64,000 nucleotides of DNA from Pisaster brevispinus (taxonomy: Eukaryota; Echinodermata; Asteroidea; Forcipulatida; Asteriidae): contig JAMKCF010000013.1 in NCBI GenBank assembly GCA_023634235.1, positions 5,803,827 to 5,867,826 on the forward strand, in the 5' to 3' direction. Both the position numbers and the translations under genes were made by a program. Positions within the stretch are counted from its first letter, which is position 1; each line of letters begins with the position of its first letter. Positions 11,501 to 59,355 of this stretch are shown one piece after another. The notes beneath the pieces were generated by a model. The model saw only the letters and a list, made by a program, of their open reading frames with translations, was not told where the DNA came from and did not search any database.

Positions 11501-14500
11501 GTGGATTGTGTGGGATGTGATGTGTGGCATCAGCTATGCATCATGGCATGTATACGTCTGCGGAATGAAAACATTTGAAAGACGCGGGGACCAGTGTAGG
11601 CTTCACTGTACGACTGGGAGACTTTCGGGGGCGCTAGGTGGCAGTAGACTTTACCAGGTAAATTCAGCCTACACGGGATTGTGCGCACGCTCAGTAAACA
11701 CGTAATACACTGGCTTGATTGTGCCACCTAGCGTCCAAAAGTCTCCAGTTATCATACATCCCATTCATTCATTTAAACGAGAAGAATTTCAGGGCGTCTG
11801 CTTACCAACAGTACTGTGGATCTTGAGCGAAATTTCCCCAAGCTGGGCCAACACTGACGCTAGCGTTTGGAAATAATCTGTGGACAAATCGTACAAAGAT
11901 CATATAACATTTTCATTATTGATATTTTCATCGACAAATAAAACACGAGAGCAAAAATTTTTATGAACGGTATTTTTGTCATTCTTTCTTATTCTCTTTC
12001 CTCTCAATATTCTTGCGAGGAAACCCGCAATGAGAAATTGGGTCAATACGTCAATGATTTGAGAATTTAAAGTTATTATAAAACCAAGGGAGTCTCCAAA
12101 AGTTCCAAGAACTTTAACATACTGAAAACGTGAAGAAGAAAAAAACAGATTTATAGGAGGAAAATCATAGTGGTGACAGAAACCGACGACATTAGGTTTA
12201 AAATTATTTTACCCATACTTGGTCTGAGAATCCAATTCGAGGTAGGATTCGAACCAGATTCCGAAACATGTCGTCAAGTACCCGGAAGATGGTCATAACA
12301 AAAGTGTGACCAGCAAATGGTCGTAAGCAATTCACTCTCCAAACGTGTGTTTTAAGAAATCTGAGTGTAAAAGTTTGGTCGTTTTTGCCATTTATATGTC
12401 AATTGGAGGAAAGATAAATTCCGCAAGAGAGAATGGAAAACATCTCTTACGAGTAACTTTAGTAACAATTAAACAGGCATGCTCTCTGGGTTTTTTTTTT
12501 TCAAAAGAGCAATTTCATTGCTTGTGACTTTCTGCTTGGGCAACAAATTTGTATTGTATGTGCCCGGAAAAAAGCTCGTCAGACGTACGAGCTTCTTCCG
12601 GGGACACACCGAAATGCTGCGTGGATTACCGGGTTTGTCTACATGTCCATCCATCCACCACAAAAACATAAACTGCTCACCTTTTGAAGGTCTTTGGGAC
12701 GTGTCCGGCAAACGCCGGCAAGACGGGCGTTATCCCAAGGTCCCTCAATCTCTTCAAGATTTGATGTTGAAGCTGAAGCTGGTTAGCGTGCCATGTGGGC
12801 GTCAGTGGGCCGCCAAAACCGTGCATATTGCCCATGCGAGACCTGAAGAGAATCACGGTCCAAAACATCGTCAAGAATTTAAAAAGGGGCACCAAGGTCG
12901 AATTGTGTTTTGAGGTCCACTCATTTTCCAATAGATAGAGTCCCTTTGAAAAACGGGGGAAAATTTTCAAGTCTCTGCCCTCCCGCTAAAATGGTGTAAA
13001 GATGCTATGTTTAATACCCTTCAAGTGAATATTTTGTTGTCAAAATAGTTTAAAAAAACACTCGATGATGTCATATTTCAAACACATTATGGTTTCTGCA
13101 CTTTTGTACCGAGAATTTTCAGTTCATTCCTAAATTTTTACAGTATTCAATTAAAATGGCATTGAACCCTATCTGTTGACTGGCATAACATTATTTCGCT
13201 CTGAAAGAGTATCAAATAAAATGTAATTTAACAACATTTTAAGGTAAAAGAGAGACTTCCCCCTGCTTTCATGAGGACTCTAGCTATTGGAAAATGAGTA
13301 CAACACAAAACTCAATTGACCTTGGGGCCCTCTTTAACTGTAAATGTGCAACATATCTGGGACCACTTCATCACGCTACTTTCTCAAAAAGACACTGAAA
13401 GCTGTATATTTTTTAGGATTTTGTTTTGAACTGTGTGATAAGTTTTAACAGCACATCGCAAACTTAACATCGTTCTAATTAGTTCGAACCCAATTATACT
13501 AAAATAATAAAACTTAGAACATAACTGTTTTCTCTCGACATAACAGTACTTGTTTTGTTTATTATATTTTACAATTTGATTGATGAAGTCACTTGGAAAA
13601 AAACACGTTGTTTAAATATAGTTTATTCCGACCCTTAAATGGGTTAAGACTACTTCTGTAACACACCTTTTAACTGAACTTTAAAAAGTAATCTTTCGAG
13701 TTTCCAGGACGTACAATCGAGAGGGTATTATTTCAGGTGTGTTATCAGACAAGAAATGCTCTACAATATGTGTCACACGGTCATGAAGAAGGGCTCAACC
13801 CGATATCACGGTTTAACTTAAGGGCAAATTCCCCAGAGTTATGGAGGAAATATCACAAACGCGGGTATGCAACAGGAACACCCTGTACTAATGCACTCTA
13901 AAAACATCCGGGTCAGAGTTGACCCGGATTTCGGGTACCAGGGGGCCTGACCCATTGATAGGTCAGGCTGACACGGAAGGTGATTGACAGGTGTGATTTG
14001 AAATTGGATTTGACTCATTTCTGGGTTATTTTGAAACAGATTCCGGGTCATATTGACCTAGAAATGGGTCAATACCCACGGGACCCAGATACGGGTCAAT
14101 TCTGACTTGTATTGGGTTCTGTGGTTCCCAACACCCCTCCCCACTGCCAATTAAACTCGTTGGCTAGTAATTGGGCGCCTGTAACTAATGGAACGTTCCT
14201 GCGTTTGTGTAATTCCTGGGGTTACTCCCCCACTATAAAAGGTTTTTATTCAACCAAATATTGCTTACCATGCAAGGAAAGCAGGTCCCCCAAAGTGCGT
14301 GTCCAGGTCGTCCTGGGTGAAGCCCATCTTAAGGTAGACCCTCTGCCAGATGGCCTCCTGTGCGTTGAAGGCAAGAGGGAGGTTGATTCCATTCATTGCC
14401 ATCCAGTCTATCTCACGCTCCCAGCGAGTCCAGTTCCAAAAGGCGAAGGAGTAACTGACCGTGCAGACATTCTGGTAGTAACGGAACCTTGTATAAGACA

Positions 14501-17500
14501 AACACATTACAAGACTAGTGATGTCCAAAGCTTGGCATGGTGTGGAAAATAAGAAGCAACTGCAGCTAGTTTACTTGTGGGTACGACCATTGTGTAAATC
14601 AATTTTTGGTAGGAGTTGGCACCGGCTCGTTTCAAAGCCAACACTTATCCCTGTAAGAGATTTACACAGGGCTGTACGCGCAAATCACAAGACGTCTCAG
14701 ACTGTTGCTGAGCATAACGGGTACCTCTGCCCGGGCCCGTTGTACTCGTGGTTTACGTCATCCTCTTCATGCAAAATAAGTTTATTGGTAAGTCGTTTCT
14801 ATCGCACCTTCTAGGTGTAGCATTAGACAGATGTCTGAATTAATACAGTTCTGGTGTTAGAACTTTCTTGGAAAACAAGATTCGGTGTTCATACAATTAC
14901 TCGTACTTCACTTAATCATTTGTCATTTATTATTCTTTGGCACAGATTCACACGTCCATGTAAAGTAATAATGTATGGGTACAGGCCGATACAAATACAC
15001 AACATAAACGATGGAAGACTTTGGAACGCTAGGTGGCAGCAGACTTATCAGGTAAACTACCAATGATTGTTTACGTAGTTCTGAGCATGCGCACATTACC
15101 GAGAACAATGGATAAACCTGGTTAGTCTGATGCCACCTAGTGTCCCAAAAGTCGCCCATTGCTGTAAAGGCTCATTCATTCTCACCTGAGGCTCTGAATA
15201 AAATTTAAGACAGAAGAAGTGAGCATAATACAACAAAATAAGGACACTAAACTATGAGATAAAGGCCACTGACAGGGTGGTTATAGTGGGTGAAAGGAAG
15301 TGCTGTCTCCGGCGCTAAATTATTTGGTAAAGAGGAAGTGGGATTGGAAGGAGTTTTGTAATGAAGACAACATAAATGGTAGTGTGGATTAATGTAAGTG
15401 TCTAGGCTATTTGAGAAAAGATAAAAGCTCACCAAGAAATGTCTTCAGTGTGTGGTGTTATTTTCTACCACTACTTTGTCTGATTTCTGTGTTTATTATA
15501 ATGCAACATGCTGAAATTTTTTAACAAATTATTTGCATAAATAAACTTATGAATTTTCAAAACGTACCTATTGGGGCTGGTGACTTTCAAGGCAGGTTGA
15601 ACTTTTGGTAGCTTAGATGGAATGTTTAGCTGGTCCCCAGCCCACGAGATGTGACATGCGCAGTATTTATTGAGGTAGTGATAGAACCCCCATGCTGCAG
15701 CGACTCCTGTTGTACCAGTGATGTTCACCGTCAATCCATCGGACTCGATCTACACGTTGTTATTATAAAAACGAAACATAGTCAAACATTATTGTAAACA
15801 GCACTCGGTAAACATCATTTGTAATCTCCGAATGTTTGTGTGATTGGCTGTTACAGTGTTTAATTTCGTCTATTTGTCCTTTTTGTTAGAACTATTGTTC
15901 ATTTTGAGTAATGTATTTCCCTTTTTATGCACCTTCTGCCAAGTCTTGTCACTTTGAGTATTTTAACTTGTTGATGAGGGCCCCAAATGATCAGCTGTGC
16001 TGGATGGGTCACCCTCGTCATGGTTTTAAATAAATAAATAAATAAATAAAGACCAAGTTTACATAATGATAACGTGACTGTATCACACGCTGATTCAGAA
16101 GGCGTTGCCAGTTTTGCCTTGTTGCAATGCAAAGGGCTAGATTTTAAGCTAGTTTGGCTGAATCCATTTTGTTGTTGTTGTTTATTTTTATTTATTTTTT
16201 TTTTGGGGGGGGGGTTGTCGTTTGCTAGTTACCCCCGAGTTTAACAGTGTCATACTTGGAAGGTATCGAGGTTGACCGGCCCCAAACTTGCATCGACCGT
16301 GACGTGAAAGGCGTTGGCCCTCGCTGGCACTTTGCGCTGAATCAGGTCCCGCACTGCATCTGCTTGCACTGGCCCCGGTGTCGTCGTGCGGATACCAGCC
16401 AACGGGTCGGACGGTTTTCCTGCTTTGTCGAAGAAGAAACATGTCCATGTTGCTTACTATCTTGGGAAGTGGGTTTCAGGATTGGTAGAGCTGACAAATT
16501 AGTCGCAGACAGTGTTCATGTTTTGTGTGGTCAACCATATACATGAAATAACAAACCTGTGAAAATATGGGCTAAATCCATTGTGCGAGTCTGGAGAAAT
16601 TAGTGAAAAACATGCATTATTTTTAGCATGTAAACTCATTGTCCTTAATTTTGGTTGTAAGAGCTGAAATCAGCTGTTGCGTTTTTTAGGTTTCTCGAAA
16701 ATGATTTCATTTCAGAGGAAAAATGTTTCTCAGGAAAAAAAATGGTTCTAGTACAAACAATGTAACAATCGGTAAGCGTTCTAAAATTTAAAAAGCTATA
16801 TTTTTATCCTTACTAATCCTGTAAATACCTTTAAGCTATATATATTATAATATGCTACGCCCTCAAATAAGTTCAAAGAGATGCAATTGCCTTCATGATG
16901 ACCCGCTACAGCAGAGTCTTTTTTTTTTAAAGAACGAATAAAACAATGAAAAAAGTACACCCTCATTTATGTGTGAAGTCCTTGTTTGAGGTTGTTGTAT
17001 CGTCATGCAGCCGTTGAGGAAAACAACACACTGCTAGGGTGAGGACGGTTTCGCTTGTATCATTCAAACCAAAAAGTCGTTTTAGTTGGTTAGCGGTTTG
17101 CAAAAGCTATTCTTCTTTGTCTTTTTTTCCCTCTCTCTCTCTCTCCCTCTCTCTCTCTCTCTCCTTCTCTCTTTCTATAAAATAATGACTTACTGGCGCT
17201 TGCATGGTGTGACCGCCACGCCAATGAAGTGGCCAGGAAAATGAAGACAAAGACTCTCTGAAACAAATGAGTTTAAAAACAATCAATCAACAAATTACAT
17301 TTCCATTTATTTTTATACTAGTCATAAACAAAGTGATACATTGTACAAGGTAATAATGGAAAAAATAGACTGAGTCGTGATAGACTGGGAAAAGCAAAGA
17401 AAGGAAACAGTGTAGAGGCTGATTTAATAAGCCGCGGCTTTCATAGTATTCAGCATGTGGGCGGACAGAGACAAGACAAACAGACAGACAGAGACAAGAC

Positions 17501-25100: not shown

Positions 25101-28100
25101 GTCATTCTCTCACTTAAATTAAGGTTGTCAAATTACATTGGTATCAATACCGAGGTTTCGTTTTAATGCTTTTAGCTCCCAAGAACTGCCTTTATTTTGG
25201 CATGGGGCTCCAAAGCATTTTTCTTACGGCTGTGTTTTGTTGCAACAGGATTTACAGACCTGTCCGTTGAGGGAACATGGGAGTGGCTCGACTGCAACGA
25301 CACCGGTCTCTTTAACCAATCTCTGTGGGGTCCAAACCAGCCCAATAACGGAGTTGAAGATTGCGGTGCGTTCCAGGCTGTCTCGCAACAACTGGCGGAT
25401 TATGCGTGCAGCCGACATTATAAATTCATCTGTGAAGTATCAGCCAAAGGTAAACAGGCCTTACGTGCACTCATAATGGTAATTGTCAAGCCGATATAAG
25501 CTATGTTAGTTCAATAATGCATTGTGCTATATGGGCATAGGTGTTCGATATTGGTAAATGAATGTAAGCAACGTCACAGCCACGAGTTTTGCCAACCTTG
25601 GTTAGCAAAAGTACGCACGGCCTTGTTTGCACACCTAATACACAACCCCTCTTTGTTAACACAATAGCCTAATACTACCAAATCGTCCATATCACAATCC
25701 AAAACAAAACAAAAAGTGTTCATATTTTTTCACAAAGGTGTTTTAAATGTTTTACTAAAAAGAGCGCATTTTGTGCCAACCCTTTTTTATACTCATCATA
25801 GGGCCGACCATTAAATCTTGTGTTCAATGTTTGCAAACAAAAGAAAATTTAAAGGTACATTGGCAAAAATTGGAGCTGCAACACAAAGGTCAGTAAGAAG
25901 TTGAGTGGTTAAATGGTCTGAGGGGATCCATCTCGGTTTACAAAAATTAGGACTAGCAGAAAATTATGATACATTGCTTCAGTTTATATTGCAAGAGTAA
26001 GTACTCGCTAATGACATAAAGTGATATGGCAAAAGAAAGGTCAGCTCGACCTAATTGACCTTTGTCACTGTGCAGCCATTTTATTACTCTTCTGTACACA
26101 TGGCAAACTTAAACCGTGGGATAGAAACCCCCGCTGTACAGTGCCTATACTTGCCAGTGCCTATAGCGGTATAGTACGAGAATAAGGTAAATATTGGTAT
26201 CATAAGTGCCGTGATTATGGTGAATCTTCCTCTAAATGGTCGCTAAGCAAAACAAACCAGGTGGGGAACCCGTCAAAAAACAGTACACATTGTTTGTCTG
26301 GTCACCATTTTTACTATTGAGTGAAATTGGTCTGTGCTTAGCAAACTTGTGTTGATAGGGCTTAAGTTACAGCTCCCAGAAACCAATCAGATTTTGGCAT
26401 TATGTGGAACAGAACGACAATACATTGGTACGAATACCTTTAAGACCGCGGCACAGCTGAACTCACAAAATACTCAACCAATGACCAGGGCCCGAGTTCA
26501 AAGAGCTGCTGAAGCAGAAAAAATGATGCTAAAAAAATGTCTTGCTCAGCAAAATAGGCATGACACCAGTCACAGATTGTGCATATGACATAGTTTTTGG
26601 GGCTGGTAACCATACTCTGGTAAGCATAATGTTGTATGAAATTGGGCCCAAAGTTGGGCCCAAGGTCAGGGTCGCCAACACGTGACCCTGGTAAGTCTGC
26701 TGCCCCCTCACAACCCCCGAAAGCCTGACTTAGATTCCGATCATTGCAGGATTTTCAGACGAGGATACCAACGTAAGGAATGTCGCCGCTACGAAAGTGA
26801 ATGACACCATAGCTCACGTGACGTGGGATGTTTCGCAGTACAACTGTGACGTCATCGGTTACAGAATTTACTATCAGCTCTATGGCGACCCAAAAACAAA
26901 CGGTAAATCTTTTTTTACAGCATGTTTAATGCATCCATCAATCATTGATGTTCCAAATAGCCTTTATTTAATTAATATCTAAAGAATAAAGAACTCTCAG
27001 ACATAATGTATGAGAGACAATATGAAACATGACATGACATCAGATGGTTACGAAGTGGCCAGAGAGCTTGTACCTTCTCAACGGATGAAGAATCTTGCAT
27101 TTGATGAAGTTGCATTGTACGATTTCTATTGACTGATAATGATTAAGAATATAGGGCCAGAATCTGTTACGCATAATATGTCAGACACGGACCATTTTGT
27201 CCGACAACCGATTTGAACCATTGTGTCCGACACATGTCCGACACATTTTGTCCCACACGCCAATAATTAATGTCCGACAAACCATTATTATTAGAGCCAT
27301 CATACCCATCTCATTGTGCCCAACAAACCTTGGCGGACATAACATTTGATGTCGGACATAACGGTGCATAACACACGTCTCAAACCTTACGCAGCCCAAA
27401 ACAGTCCCCTCACTGAGATCAATGGAGACTCAATACAGTAGAGATTAATGAGAGTTATCATTGGCTGAGAGTCGTGCGCAGCGCGTACACGCGTGCACAT
27501 TTCATTGTTTGACATCAAAGATGGCGGCAAATGCAAGCGGTCTATTCTATCCATGTACTTGTTTGTATTGTGGTATTAAATTGCGATACAAACGACAAGT
27601 GTCTAGTTTCGACACACTGCACTACAACTCACCCGAGAGGTTCTGTCAGGTGTTTCTAGCTTCTCGAGAGCTGTCCCAGTGTGCACATTGTCAAATCCCT
27701 TTGCGATTAGTAGTCTCCTTTCCTCTACATTGATTAGGTTCCGTTCAGGTAGACGGTGGAGACACATCGGAGGTGAATCTGTCTCTAATGCCGGACATGT
27801 GGTGGCAAGTGTATGTAGCTGCAATGAAGATCGATCGGGAATTAGACCTGGTAGGGCCAGCATCTGTGTGGTTAGGTAAGATGAGTTCTGTTCTTTACGT
27901 TTCAGTGTATTATGAGGACAACTGACTCAAGGAGCAATCAGAGCTGGTCACACTCTAACAATTTCCGGGTTGGAATAGACCTGGATCTGGGTCCCGTTGG
28001 GGCCTGACCCATTCCTGTGTCAGTCTCGGAATCTGTCTCAAAATGACCCAGAATTGAGTGACGCAGATTCCGAAGTAAAGTCCCATTTTATTTTTAACCA

Positions 28101-31100: not shown

Positions 31101-34100
31101 TGGAACAAATTGGACCCGTGACTGTCACAACTCCTTGGGGTATTACTAAACGAAACCATGTGATTTGTAATGTATTTGATGTTGTTTTTTATTGAGTTTA
31201 AAAGACGCTTATTAAAGTCTCTTTTTACTTTAATAATAGTTGCTGTAAGGTCTTCATACCTGCTAGAGCAGGATAGTCGAAAAGTCGACAAAATCAGTGT
31301 AGTTCTTGCAGGAACCATTTCCGATGACGGTTCCCTGTTAAGAACTATTGCGAAACATCACACCCATGGAGGGTGAAAATGCATTCGTCGTGTACCACAA
31401 ACTGAAACCCAAGTTGACTCACAACGATGCAGAGCCTTCGTTTTATTGCACCTTCACCTCAAACTTCAATCTCTTAAATCCAAACACGCAGTCATAACTC
31501 CAAAAGCGCGTGGTGAGCATAGCATGTCTGATTCTTCGGGAACTAATATTAAGCATTATGTTGAAGGTTGTTTTTGTTTTGTTTTTTGTCTAGTTCTTTT
31601 TCGCAGGTATAGCCTTTTTAGAATTAAAACAGGAGATGATGTCTTCTTTACCTGTTGTTGTTGTTTTTCTCAGTGAACCAATAAAGCAAAACGTGTCAAC
31701 CCTAAAGAGACTTTCTACAGTATACGATTTAATGAAGAAGAAAAAACATTCCCTAGAGTTCTTTTTTGTTTCAACCTTTGTCATCGTCCCCAGGTTGCCC
31801 AGCAGATTTCGAGGAGGGCCCTGGCAACAAATCATGCTACTGGTTCCAGTCCGAGAGGAGGGACTGGTGGTATAGACAGAGGAACCGGTGCACTAGCTAC
31901 GGCAGTGATTTGGTGATCATCGATAGTCCAGACGAGTTAGAGTACATCTTGAATCGGACAGAGTCAATCGCACCTAACGAGACCTGGTGGATTGGTGAGT
32001 GAATATTGAAGGGCACTCACACATAATTCCCGGTGATGATGCGGCACGAGATTTCAGGTTTAACAACATTCTACGTAACCATTTCATCGTGTTAAACCAG
32101 TTTATTACCGTTTATCTGTCAAGGACTATGGGCAGTCTAATAACATGTATTTGGAACCAGATCAAATAACCATGCAACCTTGTGTGAAATTTGTTTATTA
32201 AAACCTTAACAGTTTATATTTGTGGGTGGATAGTGGATACAGAATATTTATAACCAAGTCACATTATCCTTAAACCGTTGAAACCAAGTTACTGATGCAA
32301 TCGAGGTCTAACTGAACAGGGTTGCCTCTCAAAGCAGTCTATCAGTGGTGTGAACCAAATGAAATAACCAGTTAGTTATTTCAAAGAAGGTTAAGATTTG
32401 TACAATAACTGGTGGATGTACAATACTAATTGTGCATAAGTTTTGGTTGTACTGCCATTACTGGTAAAAAAACCCAATTAATCTGTTTGTTGTTTTAAAC
32501 CATTGTTCCTAATACTCACAGATTTGTAGAAGGTTTACTAATGGTAACCGAATCAAATAACCGGCTTATCGTTTCAAACCAGGTTACTACGATGCATCCG
32601 TCGAGGGTTTGTGGCAGTGGGTAGATTGTGGCGACACTGACGAGTGGCAGAGTAATCTCTGGGCACCAGGGGAGCCAGCGGAACTCGATGACTGTGCAAC
32701 GCTACAGGGAAGCACAGGTCATCTCGAAGGTCAAATCTGCGACCAGAGATTTCTGTTTATCTGCGAAGTGTCTCCTAAAGGTAACCAGATAAACGAACGA
32801 ATAGAAATGAAAATTGTAAGCTGTTTCTTATAACGCAAACTTAACCGGTCTGTTTTGTCCAATTCAACAGATTTTTCAAAGGAAGATAGCAAGCCGAGTA
32901 ACTTGACCGCCATTGCCGTGACGTCATTCAGTGTTGAAATAACGTGGGATGTCTCCATGTTTGCCTGTGACGTCATTGGCTACAGGGTTTACTACAACCC
33001 AACGTCTGACCAGGATAACAAAGGTAGGATTTCTCTGTCTGAAAATGTTTGTTTGGTTGAGTTGTGGGTACTTCTGTTCGTCTTATATAATATTATATAA
33101 GTTGAGAGTGCAGGACACATTGAGAGATTTTCTATCACAACTACCACACTCTAGAAGCAAGACTTCAAAATAACCAGCCAAAATAAAAAATATATATAAA
33201 ATCGGAGTTTGAATCCTAAAAAAAATAGATAACTGCATTAAATCTAAAAGTCGAAAATTGAATTTCATTTTGGCCTATGAGTTGTTCAACACTCTACTTC
33301 ATCCTCACGTCAAACAACACTATCCAAAGTGTTATTTGTGGTGGCATTGGTAACATTTGCATGACACCTGTTTTGAGAATCAGTCCCAACAATCAAAATA
33401 GATCTACAGCCATCTTTTTATTTTTGGTTATCTGATGCTGCAAATAGTAATAGGACCACAACAATAAAAGAACATTACTGCAATACTAACTCAGGTGTGA
33501 AGAATCAAGGAGAAGAAAGAGAAATAATCTTTCCAAATCTCACACACCGTGCAAATCTTGTGCGTATTTGAACAATTTGGGACCACATTGGTCCCTGTGA
33601 AGGAAAACAAATCTCGCACTTTAACAGTTGCAATGTTTACATACGCGCGAGACTTGCACTGTCTGTTGCAATTTATCTTTCACAAATGTTCGATTTCTAT
33701 CAATAGTGTTTAAAGAAATAAATGTTTACATCTTTACAATGACGATTGCCAGAATGTTGTCACGTAAAAAAGTGTAGACAAACAGATTGAACTTCTCCCC
33801 GCACATGGGTGGAAATGTGGGAACCAAAGCTAGCTTTCCCAGTCAAGAAGACAATACTTGGATTTGATTAATGATTTGAAGAAATGTATAAATTAAACCT
33901 TTATGGTCTTGTTTTCTTTCAACAGACTGGGTGTTTATGAACGGTGGAGGGGTAAGCTCGGTGGTCCTGTCGGGGTTAGCTCAAGAGACCGAATACTCCA
34001 TCGGGGTCGCTGCCCTCACCACCGCGGAGGAACTGGAACAAATTGGACCCGTGGCCGTCACAACTCCTTGGGGTAACTTAACGAAACCATGTGATTTGTA

Positions 34101-37100
34101 ATGTATTTGTTTTACTTTTATATTGAGTTTAAAAGACGGTTATTAAAGTCTCTTTTTACTTTAATAATAGTTGCTGTAAGGTATTCATACCTGCTAGAGC
34201 AGGATAGCCGAAAAGTCGACAAGATCAGTGTAGTTCTAGCAGGAACCATTTCCGATGACGGTTCCCTGTTAAGAACTATTGCGAAACATCGCACCCATGA
34301 ATGGTGAAACTGCATACGTCGTGTAGCACAAACTGAAACCCAAGTTGACACACAACGATGCAGAGCCTTCGTTTTCTTGCACCTTCACCTCAAACCTCAA
34401 TCTTATAAATCCAAACACGCAGTCACAACTCCGAAAGCGCGTGGTGAGCATAGCATGTCTGATTCTTCGGGAACTAATATTAAGCATTATGTTGAAGGTT
34501 GTTTTTGTTTTGTTTTTTGTCTAGTTCTTTTTCGCAGGTATAGCCTTTTTAGAATTAAAACAGGAGATGATGTCTTCTTTACCTGTTGTTGTTGTTTTTC
34601 TCAGTGAACCAATAAGCAAAACGTGTCAACCCTAAAGAGACTTTCTACAGTATACGATTTAATGAAGAAAAAAAACATTCCCTATAGTTCTTTTTTATTC
34701 AACCTTTGTCATCGTCCCCAGGTTGCCCAGCAGATTTCGAGGAGGGCCCTGGCAACAAATCATGCTACTGGTTCCAGTCCGAGAGGAGGGACTGGTGGTA
34801 TAGACAGAGGAACCGTTGCACTAGCTACGGCAGTGATTTGGTGATCATCGATAGTCCAGACGAGTTAGAGTACATCTTGAATCGGACAGAGTCAATCGCA
34901 CCTAACGAGACCTGGTGGATTGGTGAGTGAATATTGAAGGGCACTCACACATAATTCCCGGTGATGATGCGGCACGAGATTTCAGGTTTAACAACATTCT
35001 ACGTAACCATTTCATCGTGTTAAACCAGTTTATTACCGTTTATCTGTCAAGGACTATGGGCAGTCTAATAACATGTATTTCGAACCAGATCAAATAACCA
35101 CGCAACCGTGTGTGAAATCGGGTTATTAAAACCTTAACAGTTTATATTTTTGGGTGGATAGTGGATACAGAATATTTATAACCAAGTCACATTATCCTTA
35201 AACCGTTGAAACCAAGTTACTGATGTAATCGAGGTCTAACTGAACAGGGTTGCCTCTCAAAGCAGTCTATCAGTGATATGAACCAAATGAAACAACCAGT
35301 TAGTTATTTCAAAGGTTAAGATTTGTACAATAACCGGTGGATGTACAATACTAATTGTGCATAAGTTTTGGTTGTACTGCCATTATTGGTAAACAACCCA
35401 ATTAATCTGTTTGTTGTTTTAAACCATTGTTCCTACAACTCACAGATTTATAGAAGGTTTACTAATGGTAACCGAATCAAATAACCGGCTTATCGTTTCA
35501 ACAGGTTACTACGATGTATCTGTCGAGGGTTTATGGCAGTGGGTAGATTGTGGCGACACTGACGAATGGCAAAGTAATCTCTGGGCACCGGGGGAGCCAG
35601 CGGAACTCGATGACTGTGCAACGCTACAGGGAAGCACAGGTCATCTCGAAGGTCAAATCTGCGACCACAGATTTCTGTTTATCTGCGAAGTGTCTCCTAA
35701 AGGTAACGAAATCAACGAAAAAATAGAAATCGAAGTTGAAAGATTTTATCTTATAACGCAAACTGAACAGGTCTGTTTTATTCAATTGTAAAGATTTTTC
35801 ACAGGAAGATACCAAGCCGAGTAACTTGACCGCCATTGCCGTGACGTCATTCAGTGTTGAAGTAACGTGGGATGTCTCCATGTTTGCCTGTGACGTCATT
35901 GGTTACAGGGTGTACTACAGCCCCACCTCCGATCAAGATAACACAGGTATGGGCCCTTTTTCCTTAAACATTTCGTCGACTTGACGGTGTGTTGGAGGTT
36001 TTCTTGTTTTTTAACTCGAGTCGCATCGGAAAATACCTGTAACAATCACCACACCTTATAAGCAAAACTTTTATTAAATGTTAATCATTAATATATTTTT
36101 AAAATGCAAGCATAAGTCGGTGACCTGACGACTCTTCCTCTCTCTCTCTCTCTTTTTGTTTTATTTTTATTTATTTTGTTTTGTTTGTTTGTTTGTTTGT
36201 TTGTTTGTTTGTTTGTTTGTTTGTTTGTTTGTTTGTTGGGGTGTTGGGGTGTTGGGGTGTTTGTTTGTTTGTTTGTTTGTGTGGGTTTTTTTTTTTTTTT
36301 TTTTGGGGGGGGGGGGGTTGGGGGGGCTTTCGAGAAAGACTCTGCTAGGGTCGAAAAGTCAGGCCCCTAACTAAACTAATTTTGGTTGGTAAGCAGTTTG
36401 CAACGCCTAATTCTATGTTCACATCAGATGTAACATCTGAGATCGACGGCTCAAAATCGATAGCTGCTTTAAAAAATATAATTTGCTTTAAAATCTGTAA
36501 TTCGAAAATTAAATTAAATTTGGGCCTGGCTTTAAAACAACATTTCAATCCTCTCATTGGTTCTCACGTCGCATATTTGTCAAAACTGTTGTTTATGGTG
36601 ACGTTAATAATTTAAGCATGAATTCACATGCACTGAAAAGACGGATCCCACATCTATTAAATCATATTTAGGCCATATTTCCGGGGGGGGGGTATTCTCT
36701 GATTAGTAAATAAACAAACCTAACCCATAATGACAGCAATGCGATTGGAAGACTGGGAAAAATTTCATTCAGTTCACAAGCATTAATTTCATTTCAAAAT
36801 ACTAAAAGTTACACAGATTGTTGCTGAAGCAGGACAGTGTAACAAAACATCAAGTGGATGTAGTGGCAACTCGAACAACTGTGACAGATTTAATGCAATG
36901 AGAAAAGGAAATATGTGGCAATGGACAGACGACAAAAACAAAAAAAGCAACAGGTTACAAGACAATGAATTTGTTAAGTATTAATAAAGAAGAGTGTCTA
37001 TAACCTATATTGTGGGGTTTTTTTTCTTCTTCAACAGACTGGGTTTTTATTGACGGTGGAAGGGTAAGCTCAGTGGTCCTGTCGGGGTTAGCTAAAGAGA

Positions 37101-40100
37101 CCGAATACTCCATCGGGGTCGCTGCCCTCACCACCGCGGAGGAACTCGAACAAATTGGACCCGTGGCCGTCACAACTCCATGGGGTAACTAACCTTAAGA
37201 CCTTACTGGGTCAACCCAAAGCGACTTTAAGACTATACGAAACTATAATTATTCCCCGGGTCCTTGTTTGCTAAAAGTTCTGTCATCGTCCCCAGGTTGC
37301 CCACCGGGTTTCGAGGAGGGCCCCGGCGATCGCTCTTGCTACCATTTTTACAACGGCACCGAAACGTGGGCCTCAGCGAGGGGAGGATGCCGTGGGATCG
37401 AGGATGGAGATATCGTCATCGTCGATGACGAGGATGAGTTGAAGTACCTGGTGAGGAGGATGGAAGAGGTCAACCCGGGTCAAATGTGGTGGATAGGTAG
37501 GTCGACTAGATTTAAATACAAGCATTGCGAGATGTGCACTGTCCGAAGACCCCAGTTCATGGCTTCCCCCATTGTACCTACTTTCAAGAGAAAGGGTACG
37601 GTATGGGTGCAAACAAAATAAGGCTATTGGCGCCAAAAGACAGCAATATTTTTAGAAAGTAACTGAACCGAACATCACGTTGGTCAAACTATGGCTGGAC
37701 AACTGTGGCGTTAAGTATCGCCGGCAGTTCAAAGTGTAGACCCAACCCTTGTGTCAAAACCTAGCGTATTTAGCCATGGCTTTGACTGAACTAGTTTTAA
37801 CGGCCTGTGATAAAAGAGATCGATACAGCCAAGGTCGTCTCTCTAGTCCCAGTGTCCGTTATAAGCCTGTCAACAGACCCAACATACACCTGACGATTTA
37901 TAGTTTTTTTGGAGCGAAGAGAGTTTGGATACATCGATAATCCAGACCCAACTGTAGATATTTTGCAGGGTGTGATAGCTATGATGGTCACCAGAGTCGT
38001 TTCCATCACTGCAGGTTATTACGATGTGTCGGTAGAGGGCGTCTGGAGATGGGTAGATTGCCAGCCGACTGCCGATTGGCAGCTGCCTCTCCGGCCAGAT
38101 GATGAGCCCATGGTGGGTACTGGGGACTGTGGGTACCTCATCGGTGTGCCAGGGGACGACGAGGCGGAGATCAGAGCGTCGGTTTGTGACGACAGGAAGT
38201 ATTTCATCTGTGAAGTCATCGAGAACAGTAAGAGAAATCCGTACCAGCTAGTTGAACTGACCCTTTCATCTTATAGTATTTTTTCTGGCGTGGTTCAGCT
38301 GCAAACTGTATCACATGCTATTATCTTGCGATTCTTACAGTACTTAAAATAGGTTTAGTCGTCTAAATGTTTGTAACATGTTGACAAACAGTGAGACCTT
38401 AGGGCCCGTAGACAAGGAGATAATTATAAGTATTACGTAACTTTTATAATATACTGTACAAAATAAGCCTATTTTGATGCATTCCTGTACAATCAAAGTT
38501 GTGAAATATTAACGCACAGTCCTTGCATCATGGGTCTCAATACGGTTGTTAAGATTATTCGGCACCGTTCGAAAGGAAGCACTTTTTAAACAGAACAACA
38601 ATCCCAAATGTGTTTTTTTTTTCAGGAGTTTTCCCCAGTGATGCAAATGCTCGAAATGTCGCAGCCATTGAACTGACACCGGGTAGCTTTCTGGTCACGT
38701 GGGACACTTCTCCTGACAACTGTGACGTCATTGGTTACAACGTGTATTACCAAAAAGAGTCACCATCGGCCATGGAAGGTATTCAACAGATTTGTAATTA
38801 TCTATAGTAGACTCGAATACTATATCATCTTTATTTTATTTTTGTAAGAAAACATAATGTGCTTCCAATCGAGTTTCTTGATGGAGCTGCATTTGAAAAT
38901 TCCCTAAAACGAGGCACGTTGTCAGCACACGCTGGCATATTGTAATATGTTCATTATCTTAACCACATCATACACACTAGTCAGCTCATACTCCATAAGA
39001 TCCTAAGCTGGACTGTGCCGCATGGCCTATAGAGGGGGTGTCAATCAACATGGGGAAGTGGTTTGGTTAGAAAAGGCAGGACAGAACTCTGCCGGCACCT
39101 TTCGTGTACAAAATCGGTCCGTGAATAATGGTGTGTCAATAACTGTCAATGGTAGATGAACCAAATTAAACAAAATATAATTAATTAAGCAAACGATTAA
39201 GCATTCATTTACCCAGGCAATACATGGACTGTTAACAACATAAAGAAATTGTTCAACAATATGAAAACAAACCGTTTTTCCCCCCTACAACAAACATTTT
39301 CAGTATGTGATAACAACGTACCAGTGTTAGGTTTGCCCCAATTATTAGGTGCTTCGTTTGAGGATTTTAATGTGTATAACACTCGTTCCTTTTTTTCCTT
39401 TTTCTAGCAACAGGTGTTAAAAGTATGTTCACTTATCCGACCCCAAAAAACAACCACGTTTTTGACCAAAAATCATGTATCATACAACACAAACACTGAC
39501 ATTTCTTTTACATATTTGTCTAGAATTTCTCACCGTAGATGGCGGCAATGTCAGTAACGCTGAGGTGGTGGTTTCAATGGTAACGGAGAGCACCGTTTAC
39601 TCGGTCTCCGTGGCTGCACTGAACACAGTGACGGCGTTAGACCGCGTGGGCCCGGTCAGTGTCACTCTGAATCCCGGTAAGACACCCCCATTCGCTGATC
39701 ACCTTATGTTGTAAACCCAAAGGTTGTAAGCCCACTAAGTGTTCAACATGAAACTAAGGTTGAAAACACAAGTTAGAACTTCGGTTTGATTTGTCTAGTT
39801 CATGCAGTTTAATTTCAGCAGGAATAACTTTATAGTGAGTGAACTTTCAGAACTATAGTCTTTTTTTATGAAGATAACGTACGATCCTACTTCTGCGAAC
39901 TCTACTTCAGCGAGGATTGGGCTCTATTTGCATGAAAAGAAGTGCAAACCCAACTAGACAACTTCCCCGAAAGTCATACTCGACTGTGAGTGACGGCTAC
40001 AGATAACTTCTGATCCTGTGCATTTTCTCGACAGGAGATCCTGTCACGACCCCAGCTTACAGCTCTGCCGATGCAGTGCTGTTTATTGTCTTCAATCAGA

Positions 40101-53265: not shown

Positions 53266-54639
53266 TATAACATCCAAGTAGATCTTTGTCATTTTGATTG
53301 GAAGAAACAACTTTCAAAACAAACAAAGCGTACAATATTTAATTGTGACATTACACCCATTTCTTTTGGTTCGGCTCGTTTGGATTCAACAGTGACTAAG
53401 TGTTTTCTGTACTGCTATTTTGAGACACGCGGGCGCCGTAATGTAGTAGTGCCTTGCATTAACTGTACTGCTGCATTATCAAAGACACGCGCACACAATG
53501 ATGCGATATAACAGCGATATAACGCAGTAGTACAGCGAAATATCACCGTAAAATAAAACATGGTTTCTATTGGCGAATATGAGCCACCGTAAAAATGTGA
53601 GTGAGATCAACACAAAGTATTGTTCCGGACTTACATTTTTAACACAAGACCAGACTATATTTGGTCCATATATAAATATCCAGATACAAACAATTGAGTA
53701 CCTTTTAAACACGTGTCTCTGCAAATTCTGTTTCTTCGTGTCGGAAACGGAAGCGTAGCCTGATTGTACCATCGGATATAAAGGTTAGTTTTCACTTTCG
53801 GCTTACTGCTTTCGTTTAATTAATGGTTGTTTGGGTTCTGCGGGAATCTGGTTTTGTCGGGTTTTTTTGCACATTAATTTAGTCAGACACTGACAGAATG
53901 TTTTGATTAGATTCTGGTGAAACCTCGCAGATTTCTGTAGTTTGTTTGATTGCTTTTTTTTTTTTTTTTTTGCTTTTTTTTATGGATCTGATGTTTCCCT
54001 TTGACTCAGTGTCATGTGGAAAGCAAGGTAACGTCTGAATTCTTTTCATTCAAATGAAGTGCAAACTCATGTCAACGTGACAAAAATACATGTGAATAAC
54101 TATTTAGTTTGTAGTCATTTATTTCGTTCCGTAACCGAGAGAGCAACCTTTTGGTGTATAGCCAACCATGTCAACTTAAATCCATGCAATGAATCTGCAA
54201 CTCTCTGATGTCTGAATAACCAACGTGAGATTGTCTGAAATTTGTTCAGTGTAACATTCGCAAAGTGTGCAGCCATCTGAATTTATTTGGCCACACTGGA
54301 ATCACACTCAAGCCTACTGAGTCAGCAAGTGAAAACTACAAGACCACGAGTTTACTACACAGTTTAATTGAATGACTTGAAGTTAGATCGTAAAAAGGAT
54401 ACCACCAGTGTTATATTCACCATTGAACTAAAGCCATACTCGTGCATATCTTTTTACTTTATGAGTCAGACACATTGGATATAATTGAAGGATCTTATAT
54501 TTGACATTTAGTTCAGAACTTTTAACTCCAAGTGGTCTATACATCGCAAAAACATGTACGTGCAGGTTCTGTGCAGAAGAAAAACAAATCGGGAAGTTTA
54601 AATGTTACACCCTTTTTTCTTTTATTAATCTTTTAGAGC

Positions 54640-57600
54640 ATGACGCCCGAGGACGGAGATCGAGACCGGTCTTCTGGGACAGAATATGGCTGCGGTGTAT
54701 CAAAATTCCTGTCTGGACTTTCAGATTTCGGCAAAAGGAGTACCAACTTGAGCATACTCGTGAACGATCAGCCCCTTAGAAAGGCTTACTCGACAGCAGA
54801 GGCCGAAGGGGAACTTCCCACCAACCGGGCACGAGTCCTAATCCTAGGCGAGCCACGTGCTGGTAAAACCAGCTTGCTCAACCGTCTTCTAGGACGAACG
54901 TTTGACCTCCATGAGCAGCCGACACACGGCATCGAGACGCGTATGTGTCACGTCACTAATGTGGATAAGCAATGGAACGAGGCGGGTAGTGCTAAGGCAG
55001 ACGACATTCGAGAATGTGCCGCAGCTATTGCTTTGCTTGAGGAAGCTCCATCGGTTGAAATTAAGAAAGGGTCGGAGGGAAGCGTCCATAGATTGCCATC
55101 CATCCCTCAAACATCACAGCAAGGTTCTGATTTAGTCAAAGTCGCCTCACAGCTCTCAGTGGTTATGGTAATGCTAACGATCATCGCTGCAGTGTATACA
55201 CTGGGGATCTTTCAGCGTGGGTACGTTGTGTTTGTTCTGTTGTCAGTCGGCGCATTGGCGGTTATAACAGACTACAACATAGCCATAAAGTTTGGGACGA
55301 CAGCATCATTGAATTTTGCTCTTTTTGAAGCCACCATTCGAATCAATCGCCCACTAGAAGAACTAGCCTGTAAAACCGACGAGCCTTCAGACTATAGTAC
55401 AACTCAATTCATGTGTGAGAATGTCTTGTTCACTTTGATGACCTCCGTCCTGGTAGGTGCATCAACAGGTTTTGGCTTTCGCACCGGCGTTGTGGTGGCC
55501 TTCTCGGTGTGTGAGCACCCTTGGGAGTCAGAGAAGCAAACTGTTCGTTCGTTTGTTTCCTGGAACTTGTTGATACTTTTCGCTATGCTACTCACAGGAG
55601 GAGCTATTGGTATGGGAAGCTATAAATATTGTACAGTGGATAATCGGTGGCATCCAAAAAGAATTTTTGTCTGCCTGCTTTTTATGCTTATTTTACTGTC
55701 AGTGTATACTCAAATTAACTGCAGTTACCGACTCCATTATTTCATTTTCCTTCATGGGTTCGTCGTGCACATTGCGACAACGTGGGCAATAATCTTCAGC
55801 AGCAGGCTCGTTCTCAAATATGATTTTCACGCCAGTTATGTCACCAAAAAAACCATTGGTTTGGTAATCGGCTTTTACCTTGCCCACGTGTGTGGATGGA
55901 CTCTCAGAGTACCGGACACCTCTTTTAAATCCCTTGTCTTCTATACTTTCTCGGTTGTCATATTTCCATTGTTTGACCTCTACACCGCCTATAGGATATG
56001 GAGTACGGAATCTATTTTCCCTGTGAAGACGATCCGAAACCAAATGAAGGCTCTGGTCCACGGACAACCTCTTCTCGAGACTAAACTGAGTCTGTGGGAC
56101 TTCGCAGGAGATCCCTTGTACCACTGTACCCACCATGTGTTTATGCCCGATCGAGCCTTGTACGTAATTGTCTTCAACCTAGAGGCAGCTGTCTCTGACG
56201 AAGACGTACAAGTTCAGAAACTCCTCTTCTGGCTCCACTCTGTCTGTGCGCACGCGCGGCATCCAGACGCTGTCGTCATGATTGTCGGTACCCATAAAGC
56301 CAGCGTCCCAGAGGCAGACAGAAAATATTTCACTGATAATCTTCACAATCGAATCACTTCCAAATTCTGCGACCGGCTTGTTCTGAACCCGGTCGACGAC
56401 AGGCCTTTGTTTCTGGTAGAGAATTCGGATTTCTATGATCAAGACTTTCGACAGCTAAGAGCAGAGATATTTAGACGTGTCGAGAGTGCAGAGTACGCCC
56501 AGGAGAAATATCCTATCAAGTATTTGCATTTTTACCAGGAGGTCCAAAATAGACGGAAACTTGCCCAGGCGTCCGATTGTGCCAAGAACGTAGCCACGCT
56601 ACAAGAGATCCACGACTTGGCAAAGGACACATGCAACGTAGAGGGCGAGGATCAGTTAATGAAAATGCTGAGATATTTCTGTGAGGCAGGCGAGATCATC
56701 TACAGAGAGGAAGACGAAGTACTGAGACAGCATGTGGTACTCGATCCTCAGTTTCTGGTGGACGTCATGAAGAAGTTAGTTGACATCCCACGTGGCTACC
56801 ATCGCTCACATCGCCACGCAATTGAGTGGAGAAACTACGAGAACACTGGAATTATTTCAGAGGAACTGCTGCAACATATCTACTGCGATATGCCTCATCT
56901 TATCCCGTTGCTAGTCAATCTACTTCAAGCATTCGATCTCATGGGCTCAGTGGAACCCACTCGAGACACAAGCAGTTCCCAGCCTTCGTTTTTGGTGCCT
57001 GCCATGTTGCCTCCTTTCGAAGGTGAGGGGGCGAAGTTTTGGGAATCACAAGACAAAGAGGACGTCTTCTACTTTGACTTTGGCTTCTTTGATCCAACAA
57101 CTATCTACTACCGTCTGTTGACAAGGTGCCTGACACATGCCAGCAGGAATAACGAAGAACCTCACACAAAACCGCTCATCTTCGCAGATCGTTGTTGGTT
57201 CCACATTGGAACTAGTTTAATCTTCAAGCTCCAGTTGGAGAAGAGATCCTCCCAACAGCAGCTTATTTCGGTCGCCATTTTAAGGTTTGAATCTGACAAC
57301 GCGAGCGTAGAGTTATTAGAGTTTTTGGTAGATGCTGTGAGGACCATTACTGCTAGGGATTATTCACATCTTAACTTTACATTTGGTCCCCGATGTCCGT
57401 TCTGTGACGGACCTCCTCCCTCGAATGAACTAATGGACGTCGAACAACACGACGAGGCTATACATGTCCTGAAAATGGCGGGAAACGACAAGTCATTTCC
57501 CACAAAGTCATCGACCGTAATGTTCTGTGGAGTAAGGCGATACAATATGAAACTGAGCAAATCAATGGTAAGTACATACTTCAAATTAACCATTTGCTAA

Positions 57601-58260
57601 GTAGTTGTAGATGCTCATTTGTCATCGAGTCTCGACAAAAACAAAAACCAAAACCCACATTTTTTCAAGTTGTCAGGGTTTCTGGACATTAACAGTGCCC
57701 CGATAAAATTCCCGCTCTGAGCAGATTTTCATTAATGATTTACCACTTTAGGAGAACCTTCCAGGTACCTCCCATCCACCACAGAGGGTAGTTTTTGGCC
57801 CGGAGACACTTATCACCAAGATACCACCAGACCTATTTGACAAGGTGTGCTGTCTCCTCAACGCACTGGGGCAGAGGAGCTGGAAGACACTGGCAGGTGA
57901 GGACACGACCATGGTTAATATACGTAAATCTCTCGTGAAAACTTTAAAATTAACAATCCTTGGTTGTTAAAGAGCAATGCAGTTTTTCGATCATCGCGGT
58001 CCTCATTTAGGACAGAGACTCTGAACTCTGAGAGTTCTTTAACAGTATCCTAACTTTCTGTTTCTTCAGGTGAATTGGGTAAAGATGTGGAATTCGTAGC
58101 TGCGTTAGACAGTGAGGGGGTGACCAACCCCAGCGAGTATCTCCTCAAGGAATGGGCGATGGAAGGAGGCGTCACAGTGGCTGATCTACTTGAGCTTCTG
58201 GACAGACCGTGTCTGGATAGGAAGGACATCATCCAAGAAGTCAGAGCTCAAATGCATTGA
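54640..58260 (+). CDS. Roco-family GTPase with intra-domain membrane helices, COR and Death domains (complete, 3 exons)
   Basis: Exons 54640-57567, 57752-57896 and 58070-58260 join in phases 0 and 1 to give 1087 residues. Residues 66-110 start a Roc GTPase: P-loop GEPRAGKTS (70-78) and QPTHGIE with the G2 threonine (Thr95). The G3 motif DFAGD appears only at 487-491 and the G4-like GTHKAS at 550-555. Between them residues 170-450 form about eight hydrophobic spans (approximately 172-190, 194-212, 262-290, 306-328, 342-358, 366-388, 404-424, 431-449). A COR-like region follows (about 625-910, for example HVVLDPQFLVDVMKKLV). Exons 2-3 encode a Death domain (about 1004-1087: LFDKVCCLL, RSWKTLAGELG, EWAMEGGVTVADLLELL). 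No leucine-rich repeats or kinase. The ATG lies three bases after a CTTTTAG acceptor, so a 5' UTR exon probably precedes it. Likely a signalling protein that recruits Death-domain partners. Confidence 0.93.
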
Positions 58261-58433
58261 TGATTTTTGAGCTGTCCCCGGGTCACGAGACAAAAGAAAT
58301 CAATTTAGTACACTGTAAACAAAACTGTTAAAATGCAGGTTTTGGGGGGTTTTGTTGCTGTATAAGTACAGCATGGCAACGTTATTTTGGTTTGACGAAA
58401 TTTTGCATCTTAAAGAATGTCATACTCACTGAG

Positions 58434-58439
58434 AATAAA
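58434..58439 (+). promoter_or_regulatory. Possible poly(A) signal of the Roco gene, inside a mobile element
   Basis: AATAAA lies 173 bases after the TGA at 58258-58260, within the TIR element that begins at 58309. A second AATAAA is at about 58646 in the duplicated unit. No earlier signal was seen between the stop and the element. Confidence 0.45.
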
Positions 58440-59355
58440 CAAAACGCCGTTTAATAACACGTTTTAAAAAGCACCCTGTAAATTTAAGTTAAAGGCTGTT
58501 TTTTCCAGGATTATTCCCGTCAAAACAAAGGGAACAGTGCAAACAAGCTGTAAATATACAAGATTTGTTGGCATAACAATTACAGCACCAAAAACGTTTT
58601 TTGGTTCGACGAGGTTTTCAAATGAACATCATACGTACTGTTAATAAACAAAACGCCGTTTAATTACACGTTTTAAATATCATCCTGTAAATTCAAGTCG
58701 AATGCTGTTTTTTTCCAGGATTATTCCCGTCAAATCACAGGTTTCCGTGTACCACGGTGAAGTAAACCTGTAAAATGCAATCATTGGGGTATGAAAATTA
58801 CAGCGCTACAACATTTTGTTTGACGAAGTGGATGGTAATTAAACGCCGTATTTTTAAACAATATAAACAATTTGCAGTTTATTTACATAATATTGAGATA
58901 AGGACCTAAACCTTATTGATGGCCTAAGTTGATTTAACGAACTTGAGCCACCCCCCCCCCACCATTTTTTTTCTTCTTTTTTATACTGGATTTTATTGTG
59001 GGTTTTTTTTTTGGGGGGGGGGGTTGTCGTTCAGATGGGGGTGTTTATTTGTTTTTGTTTTTTGGTGTGATTACTATGCTTGTGTTGGCCTACTATACTA
59101 TATCTACTTTAGTTTCATTGTCAAGGTGAGATTCTCAAAATCAAATTTCCCAATAGAATCCTATAAATTTACATTGGCTTGTGTGTAAGCAGCACGTGGA
59201 AACTGGTACCCTGATTTTACATTCCGATATACACCAAATGCTTTTCGATAACCAGTGATTCTTTAGGAACCAGTCTGTCCTCGCTGTACTGTAAATAACA
59301 TAAGCTATAGTTTTGGGAGCCAGACAACAAGGAACATGTGCGCGCGTGGTTTGGA

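Follow-up and report, generated by a model that had tools for sequence, protein, structure and literature searches.

A predicted polytopic membrane cassette within the Roc domain of a Roco-Death protein of sea stars and a hemichordate

The object of this analysis is a gene of the sea star Pisaster brevispinus, located at 54640-58260 on the + strand of the window, that is, the whole stretch of 64,000 nucleotides taken from contig JAMKCF010000013.1 (positions 5,803,827 to 5,867,826). Its three exons encode a protein of 1087 residues in which a Roc domain, the Ras-like domain of Roco proteins, is predicted to be split between its strands beta2 and beta3 by a polytopic membrane cassette, and is followed by a COR region and a terminal Death domain. 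The model we propose, to which we give even chances, makes of this protein a membrane sensor in which Roc-COR would act as the switch and the Death domain as the output. A preliminary description of the same locus had noticed the split Roc and envisaged such a coupling; the observation is confirmed and the overall interpretation is supported by the results presented here.

The reading frame is open from 54637 to 57600. Exon 1 runs from the ATG at 54640 to 57567, with a GTAAGT donor at 57568, and its 976 codons, whose continuity had been claimed from the start and is borne out by this single open frame, carry the first half of Roc, the cassette, the second half of Roc and COR. Exon 2 (57752..57896) and exon 3 (58070..58260, with the stop codon) have GT and AG borders, exon 2 preserves the phase, and both are homologous in relatives, exon 2 in P0001 among others. 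Only about 57 residues precede the Roc domain, and all features of this gene lie on the + strand.

The two halves of Roc lie at residues 58-104 (54811..54951; predicted beta1, P-loop, alpha1, switch I and beta2) and 482-617 (56083..56490; predicted beta3 to alpha5). In the Pfam scan, the Roc profile matches in two stretches with 64.8 bits (cut-off 27), the best being 472-552, and the Ras profile, also in two stretches, with 34.2 bits (cut-off 21.6), the best being 65-110; a match to 4wnr covers residues 56-110, and Roc is matched in all 13 members of the family alignment A1 at E <=1. The key residues are distributed on both sides of the cassette, as first described. Ahead of it stand the G1 motif or P-loop, GEPRAGKT (residues 70-77, 54847..54870), whose G70, G75, K76 and T77 are invariant in 16/16 family members and in 54/54 prokaryotic rows, and the G2 residue Thr95 (54922..54924), invariant in the same two sets; behind it stands G3, DFAGD (residues 487-491, 56098..56112), whose D487, F488, A489 and G490 are invariant in 16/16, the Asp and the Gly being so in 54/54 prokaryotic rows as well. 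Since the residues of G1, Thr95 and G3 are invariant, the contacts with phosphate and Mg appear to be retained. The distance from K76 to D487 is 411 residues here and 406-420 in 12 family rows of alignment A5; from the P-loop Lys to the G3 Asp it is 37-56, with a median of 42, in 54 prokaryotic Roc slices.

In the structure prediction retained (model 2, built on 66 sequences and used in place of model 1), beta2 occupies residues 98-104 and beta3 residues 482-488, with about 377 residues in between, which locates the insert between strands 2 and 3, where it had been announced. The predicted local distance difference test score (pLDDT) is 87-94 over the ten-residue blocks of 61-100 and 81-97 over those of 481-620, and the two halves, which are among the most conserved parts of the protein in the family alignment, are predicted by this model to form one intact Ras-like fold around the insert. 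It is mainly from this single fold that both halves are predicted to lie on the same, cytosolic side of the membrane.

The cassette itself occupies residues 160-456 (55117..56007), as delimited by model 2, by hydropathy and by homology between phyla. It is preceded by linker 1 (residues 105-159, 54952..55116), in which the invariant W112, D121 and C126 are followed by a variable stretch of low confidence, and followed by the basic linker 2 (residues 457-481, 56008..56082), predicted to be cytosolic. Model 2 predicts ten helices of at least 10 residues in the cassette, at 160-187, 195-209, 212-235, 251-278, 281-290, 308-331, 339-358, 361-394, 400-417 and 429-456. The Kyte-Doolittle profile has ten peaks >1.3 in seven separate stretches of residues 172-450; eight non-overlapping 19-residue windows exceed this value between 172 and 450, in agreement with the 280 or so residues and roughly eight hydrophobic spans originally reported, and 5-9 do so across the 16 family members. 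Within 111-479, 20 residues do not vary among the family members (16/16), and the 14 of them inside the cassette (G194, G273, G277, G279, G283, G320, R336, Y400, K403, G407, G411, G419, P443 and L447) include nine Gly.

This architecture is not confined to Pisaster brevispinus. In three protein searches, two scoring 7993 candidates that shared most words and one scoring 6136, the search of other proteomes recommended by the preliminary description retrieved it in sea stars and in the hemichordate Ptychodera flava. The cassette family comprises at least 16 near-full-length proteins, six from Ptychodera flava and ten from sea stars, the nine sea star proteins other than ours coming from Asterias amurensis, A. 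rubens, Patiria miniata (six copies) and Acanthaster planci; lineages were verified for A. amurensis, P. miniata and P. flava. P0009 is counted although its model is without most of the Death domain. The counts exclude P0010 (Acanthaster), which skips residues 243-762 in the numbering of the Pisaster brevispinus protein, and P0029, whose sequence begins only within the last cassette helix; both are also without parts of Roc, as in truncated gene models. The cassette identity to the Pisaster brevispinus protein is 20-22% in the Ptychodera members compared. When the cassette alone was compared between the ten sea star proteins and two Ptychodera slices, hhalign gave a score of 86.9 and a probability of 97.6%, against a maximum of 23.8 in 60 block-shuffled alignments, the real alignable part starting after the first helix; on the strength of these alignments, the cassette is homologous between sea stars and the hemichordate. 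The assertion that it is no intron artefact holds equally: the frame is open, the cassette is present in 9 other sea star and 6 Ptychodera proteins, and its conservation in these 15 rules out an intron or assembly artefact.

In an unrooted tree, the sea star and hemichordate members are split by one long branch with a support of 1.000, which by sequence indicates that the copies were multiplied separately once the two lineages had parted, or else were homogenised. The simplest reading of these sequences is that the split Roc already existed before echinoderms and hemichordates diverged. P0005, P0008, P0009 and P0029 bear the database labels serine/threonine protein kinase or 'roco4', and no kinase family is among the families listed for the scans that included them.

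COR directly follows Roc. COR-A (residues 637-790, 56548..57009) matches Pfam PF16095 with 48.6 bits (cut-off 35.3), and a COR-A match is found in 12/13 A1 members at E <=1; the rest of COR, a COR-B-like region (residues 791-920, 57010..57399), is recognized by alignments to LRRK1/2 and to the C. tepidum RocCOR, which extend to model residues 916-976. Precomputed domain lists give COR for P0001-P0009 but for only one of the six Ptychodera proteins. The Death domain (residues 1007-1084, 57842..58248), split by the intron 57897-58069, matches PF00531 with 25.2 bits (cut-off 22.6), and its profile is found in 9/10 members of alignment A6 at E <=1; with these scores, the presence of both domains, also claimed beforehand, is borne out. 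In A1 and A6 the Pisaster brevispinus row consists of exon 1 only, without exons 2-3. The location of the Death domain at the protein end suggests the recruitment of death-fold partners.

In Ras-like proteins, the interswitch hairpin (beta2-beta3) connects the two switches, I and II, and in Arf proteins it shifts with the nucleotide state. In the model we propose, membrane helices tied to both ends of this hairpin would read or drive the switch. The outer loops would form the sensing surface and the cassette would move the hairpin, thereby changing the nucleotide state or the dimerisation of Roc-COR; this change would expose or cluster the Death domain, which would then recruit its death-fold partners. 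Because several paralogues are present per species, as is often so for immune sensing proteins, we infer an immune or cell-death setting.

Several observations weigh against this sensor reading, and they are set out in what follows together with the alternatives to which they lend weight. Concerning the Roc domain, model 1 (mean pLDDT 62.3), built on 13 family sequences only, left the first half unfolded (pLDDT <50 at 52-125), and model 2, which folded it only once prokaryotic slices pre-matched to both halves had been added, depends on its alignment. Of the G4 motif announced as GTHKAS, a degenerate segment is indeed present, THKAS at residues 551-555 (56290..56304) with an invariant Ser555, and the canonical Asp is lacking: position 554 is Asp in 2/16 family members (P0002 and P0028), Glu in 3, Asn in 4, Ala in 6, including the Pisaster brevispinus protein, and Thr in 1, compared with Asp in 43/54 prokaryotic rows. 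Residue 491, at the Gln61 position, is Asp in 10/10 sea star and Gln in 6/6 hemichordate proteins. Since the G4 Asp is mostly lost and the Gln61 position is Asp in sea stars, guanine specificity and hydrolysis are in doubt, and GTP hydrolysis would probably be slow or need help in trans. Judged by sequence, the missing G4 Asp lowers the claim of a working GTPase and leaves Roco descent untouched; the Roc fold is present by descent, and the GTP switch is what we infer from it. The same two substitutions would fit a pseudo-GTPase scaffold, in which Roc has lost switching and signalling proceeds by ligand-induced clustering alone. We consider this quite improbable, for the G1 residues, Thr95 and the G3 Asp and Gly would hardly remain invariant throughout the family and the prokaryotic rows, nor the Roc halves so conserved, if selection on nucleotide binding had been lost.

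The junction between cassette and Roc is a second point. Both linkers are flexible in model 2 (pLDDT <50 at 105-162 and 453-473), which weakens the case for a tight coupling of the cassette to Roc. Moreover, the cassette is the least conserved among the large parts of the protein. Its most variable portion is outer loop 1, whose identity is 0.29 among sea star members and 0.23 among those of Ptychodera; the Roc halves reach 0.69-0.90. In outer loop 2 the identity (0.35) is not below that of helix 1 (0.35) or helix 342-360 (0.37), outer loops 3 and 4 are intermediate (0.50 and 0.49), and the variability of loop 1 is equalled by that of the cytosolic linker 129-166 (0.29). This variability makes a sensing surface possible, and relaxed constraint fits it as well. 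The cassette could be a passive anchor, landed in an insertion-tolerant loop, that merely tethers a Roc-COR-Death scaffold and has no switching role; the flexible linkers, the low conservation and the enlargement of the P-loop-to-G3 stretch by soluble inserts in P0013, P0016 and P0021 all accord with it. This is the main rival to the sensor reading, and we hold it to be rather unlikely: one helix would suffice as an anchor, yet about ten have been kept in two phyla with 14 invariant residues.

Topology is the third point. The evidence consists of hydropathy, charge and sequons only, and 8-10 membrane passes are predicted. In each of the five models tried, the charge bias places the G3 side on the inside. 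With N inside, the even models range from +5.6 to +11.6; with N outside, the odd models reach +5.0 and +6.6, near the hairpin models A (+7.2) and D (+5.6). Charge bias by itself does not tell even pass numbers from odd ones, and this failure lowers our confidence in the sensor reading. Model B (8 crossings) has the top charge score, +11.6, but its sequons fall 16 inside and 15 outside. An exhaustive charge-only ranking favoured 6-segment models, which were set aside as they drop clear hydrophobic helices. The sequons, found in the loops 236-256 (7/16 proteins), 291-305 (7/16) and 423-430 (5/16), weakly favour 8-10 passes, and a hairpin at 251-290 gives the best split among the models tried, 22 outside and 7 inside. 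Per 1000 residues, there are 23.0 sequons in outer loop 1, 13.7 in loop 2 and 52.1 in loop 4, and 12.7 and 14.4 in the stretches 111-166 and 1-57, assumed to be cytosolic. The sequon evidence is weak because of this frequency in presumed cytosolic stretches and because sequons are also present at 389-404 in 3/16 proteins. A disulphide between Cys361 (15/16) and Cys244 (10/16), both in predicted outer loops, is possible.

An odd number of passes would place the Roc halves on opposite sides of the membrane, where they would never meet. The odd models with N outside do reach the positive charge scores just given, and the stretch skipped by the Acanthaster gene model P0010 could be taken for an intronic cassette. 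We regard either form of artefact as highly improbable, however, since the frame is open over 976 codons, 15 other proteins, from two phyla, carry the cassette in the same position, and P0010, like P0029, loses Roc parts too, in the manner of truncated models; furthermore, the residues of the P-loop and of G3 are jointly invariant in 16/16, and halves kept apart would not stay so.

A further alternative would make of the cassette a nucleotide-gated pore or transporter for an ion or a solute, with a re-entrant hairpin at 251-290 as filter or gate, Roc-COR as the element that opens or closes it and a Death domain that only assembles it. The bottom of this proposed hairpin would be a GxxxGxGxRxG-like segment (residues 273-283, 55456..55488), in which G273, G277, G279 and G283 are invariant (16/16) and position 281 is Arg, except for Lys in P0027. 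In model 2 a long helix at 251-278 gives way to a short one at 281-290, and the four glycines lie between the two loops that carry sequons in 7/16 proteins each, so that the hairpin ends may face outside. But the glycines may just pack helices, the sequons are the weak evidence described above, and the cassette has no match above cut-off in Pfam (best bPH_10, E 0.29) or NCBIfam (best E 1.8) and, with a profile from 6/16 members, none at E <=10 among PDB sequences; in these three collections no sequence match to any channel or transporter family was found above these limits. A pore is for us improbable. Phage records gave no match to the cassette, and 56 pattern matches in viral contigs gave 0 confirmed relatives. 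As the VIA-align structure rows listed were Roc-COR and small GTPases, we do not call the cassette fold new.

The last point is the output domain: in sea stars the Death profile is matched weakly (5/13 A1 members at E <=1), and the model of P0009 is without most of the region, over which the remaining family rows align.

If the coupling supposed by the sensor reading is real, the family would unite receptor, GTPase and Death domain in a single protein and offer a natural experiment on the control of Roc-COR by the interswitch hairpin. More tentatively, it could represent an ancient ambulacrarian class of receptor or channel, with an 8-10-pass sensor wired into the Roc interswitch hairpin, in which an outside signal would flip the switch within one polypeptide and fire the Death domain, requiring neither a separate G protein nor an exchange factor. 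A hydrophobic cassette inside a switch region has been kept in sea stars and an acorn worm. In echinoderms and hemichordates, the likely repertoire of immunity or cell death thereby gains a family hidden by automatic 'serine/threonine protein kinase' labels.

Around the gene, a pyrimidine-rich stretch with an AG at 54615-54640, just 5' of the ATG, is perhaps a splice acceptor, and for this reason an upstream 5' non-coding exon may exist. Just 3' of the gene, two 93-base copies (58412-58504 and 58621-58713, 84% identical), each with AATAAA, may be a duplicated poly(A) region. Upstream, four C-type lectin-like exons lie on the + strand (25176-25496, 32561-32830, 35423-35788 and 37894-38349), three above the Pfam cut-off of 22.6 (29.2, 27.3 and 27.1 bits) and one below (15.8 bits). 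Two very similar 99-codon frames on the same strand (31377-31673 and 34308-34604) are about 2.93 kb apart, approximately the spacing of the lectin frames at 32561 and 35423, perhaps by recent tandem duplication. Exons of NAGLU (alpha-N-acetylglucosaminidase) extend over about 7104-15749 on the - strand, where 4/10 frames scanned match PF05089 or PF12971 above cut-off.

To our knowledge, Roco proteins are multidomain switches of a soluble or peripheral kind. The Roc-COR tandem is, by profile and predicted fold, common to the present protein and to LRRK1/2, DAPK1, MFHAS1 and prokaryotic Roco; the Pisaster brevispinus protein differs from these by a Roc split by a polytopic cassette and by a degenerate G4. 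The terminal Death domain is shared with DAPK1, of Roco group 3 in the excerpt of PMC6337361. Pfam scans of this protein and of the 13 A1 members matched neither a kinase family, a feature that precedes Roc-COR in group 3, nor an LRR family, a feature that does so in groups 1 and 2, so that by sequence the protein is of Roco descent and yet lies outside all three groups of that excerpt. The abstract of PMC6337361 describes the GTPase function of Roco proteins as still debated.

Roc-COR domains are carried in Aplysia by TLR-like and MyD88-like proteins (PMC9334734, in part). As here, Roc-COR is joined in a marine invertebrate to putative immune receptors or adaptors; there, however, it stands beside TIR and LRR, and the part of that source available describes no membrane cassette inside Roc. 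'AP-GTPase' switches are reported in animal and bacterial proteins of death and immunity in portions of PMC8195603 and PMC7159879. In searches of the open-access literature, none of the titles and abstract openings listed describes a Roc or GTPase with a membrane insert or the cassette family.

Other Roc domains harbour soluble inserts of roughly 95-150 residues, with a maximal 19-residue hydropathy <=0.39 and Lys-to-Asp spacings of 160 in P0013 (coral, Porites), 185 in P0016, 191 in P0021 and 137 in P0024. On sequence reading, P0013, P0016 and P0021 have a Trp shortly after switch I, as W112 here. The cassette probably landed in an already long loop. P0016 and P0021 combine a caspase-fold domain (precomputed PF00656) with such a Roc, and P0024 (709 residues) has by reading a PH domain (precomputed PF00169), a membrane-linked domain inside Roc, between P-loop and switch I.

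Death receptors of the TNFR/p75NTR type are single-pass proteins with a large ectodomain and no GTPase; they and the present protein would both set a Death domain under a membrane sensor, but the outer loops are short here and a Roc GTPase-type domain is present. In KAP NTPases, such as Kidins220/ARMS, PifA and TmnA, transmembrane segments are reportedly inserted in the P-loop NTPase domain, as the title of a 2004 paper by Aravind and colleagues has it, and they are the precedent for an insert such as the present one. By analogy, membrane segments between Walker A and B would correspond to the cassette predicted between G1 and G3. KAP is called an ATPase in the portion of PMC8195603 available, and Tmn has two transmembrane domains according to an excerpt of PMC11846954, whereas a Ras-like Roc with about ten helices, COR and Death is found here; the KAP profile is missing from the 20 families to which the 13 A1 members show matches at E <=1. 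The family described here would show that a membrane insert of the KAP kind, placed within a P-loop NTPase, has arisen in the Ras-like class as well.

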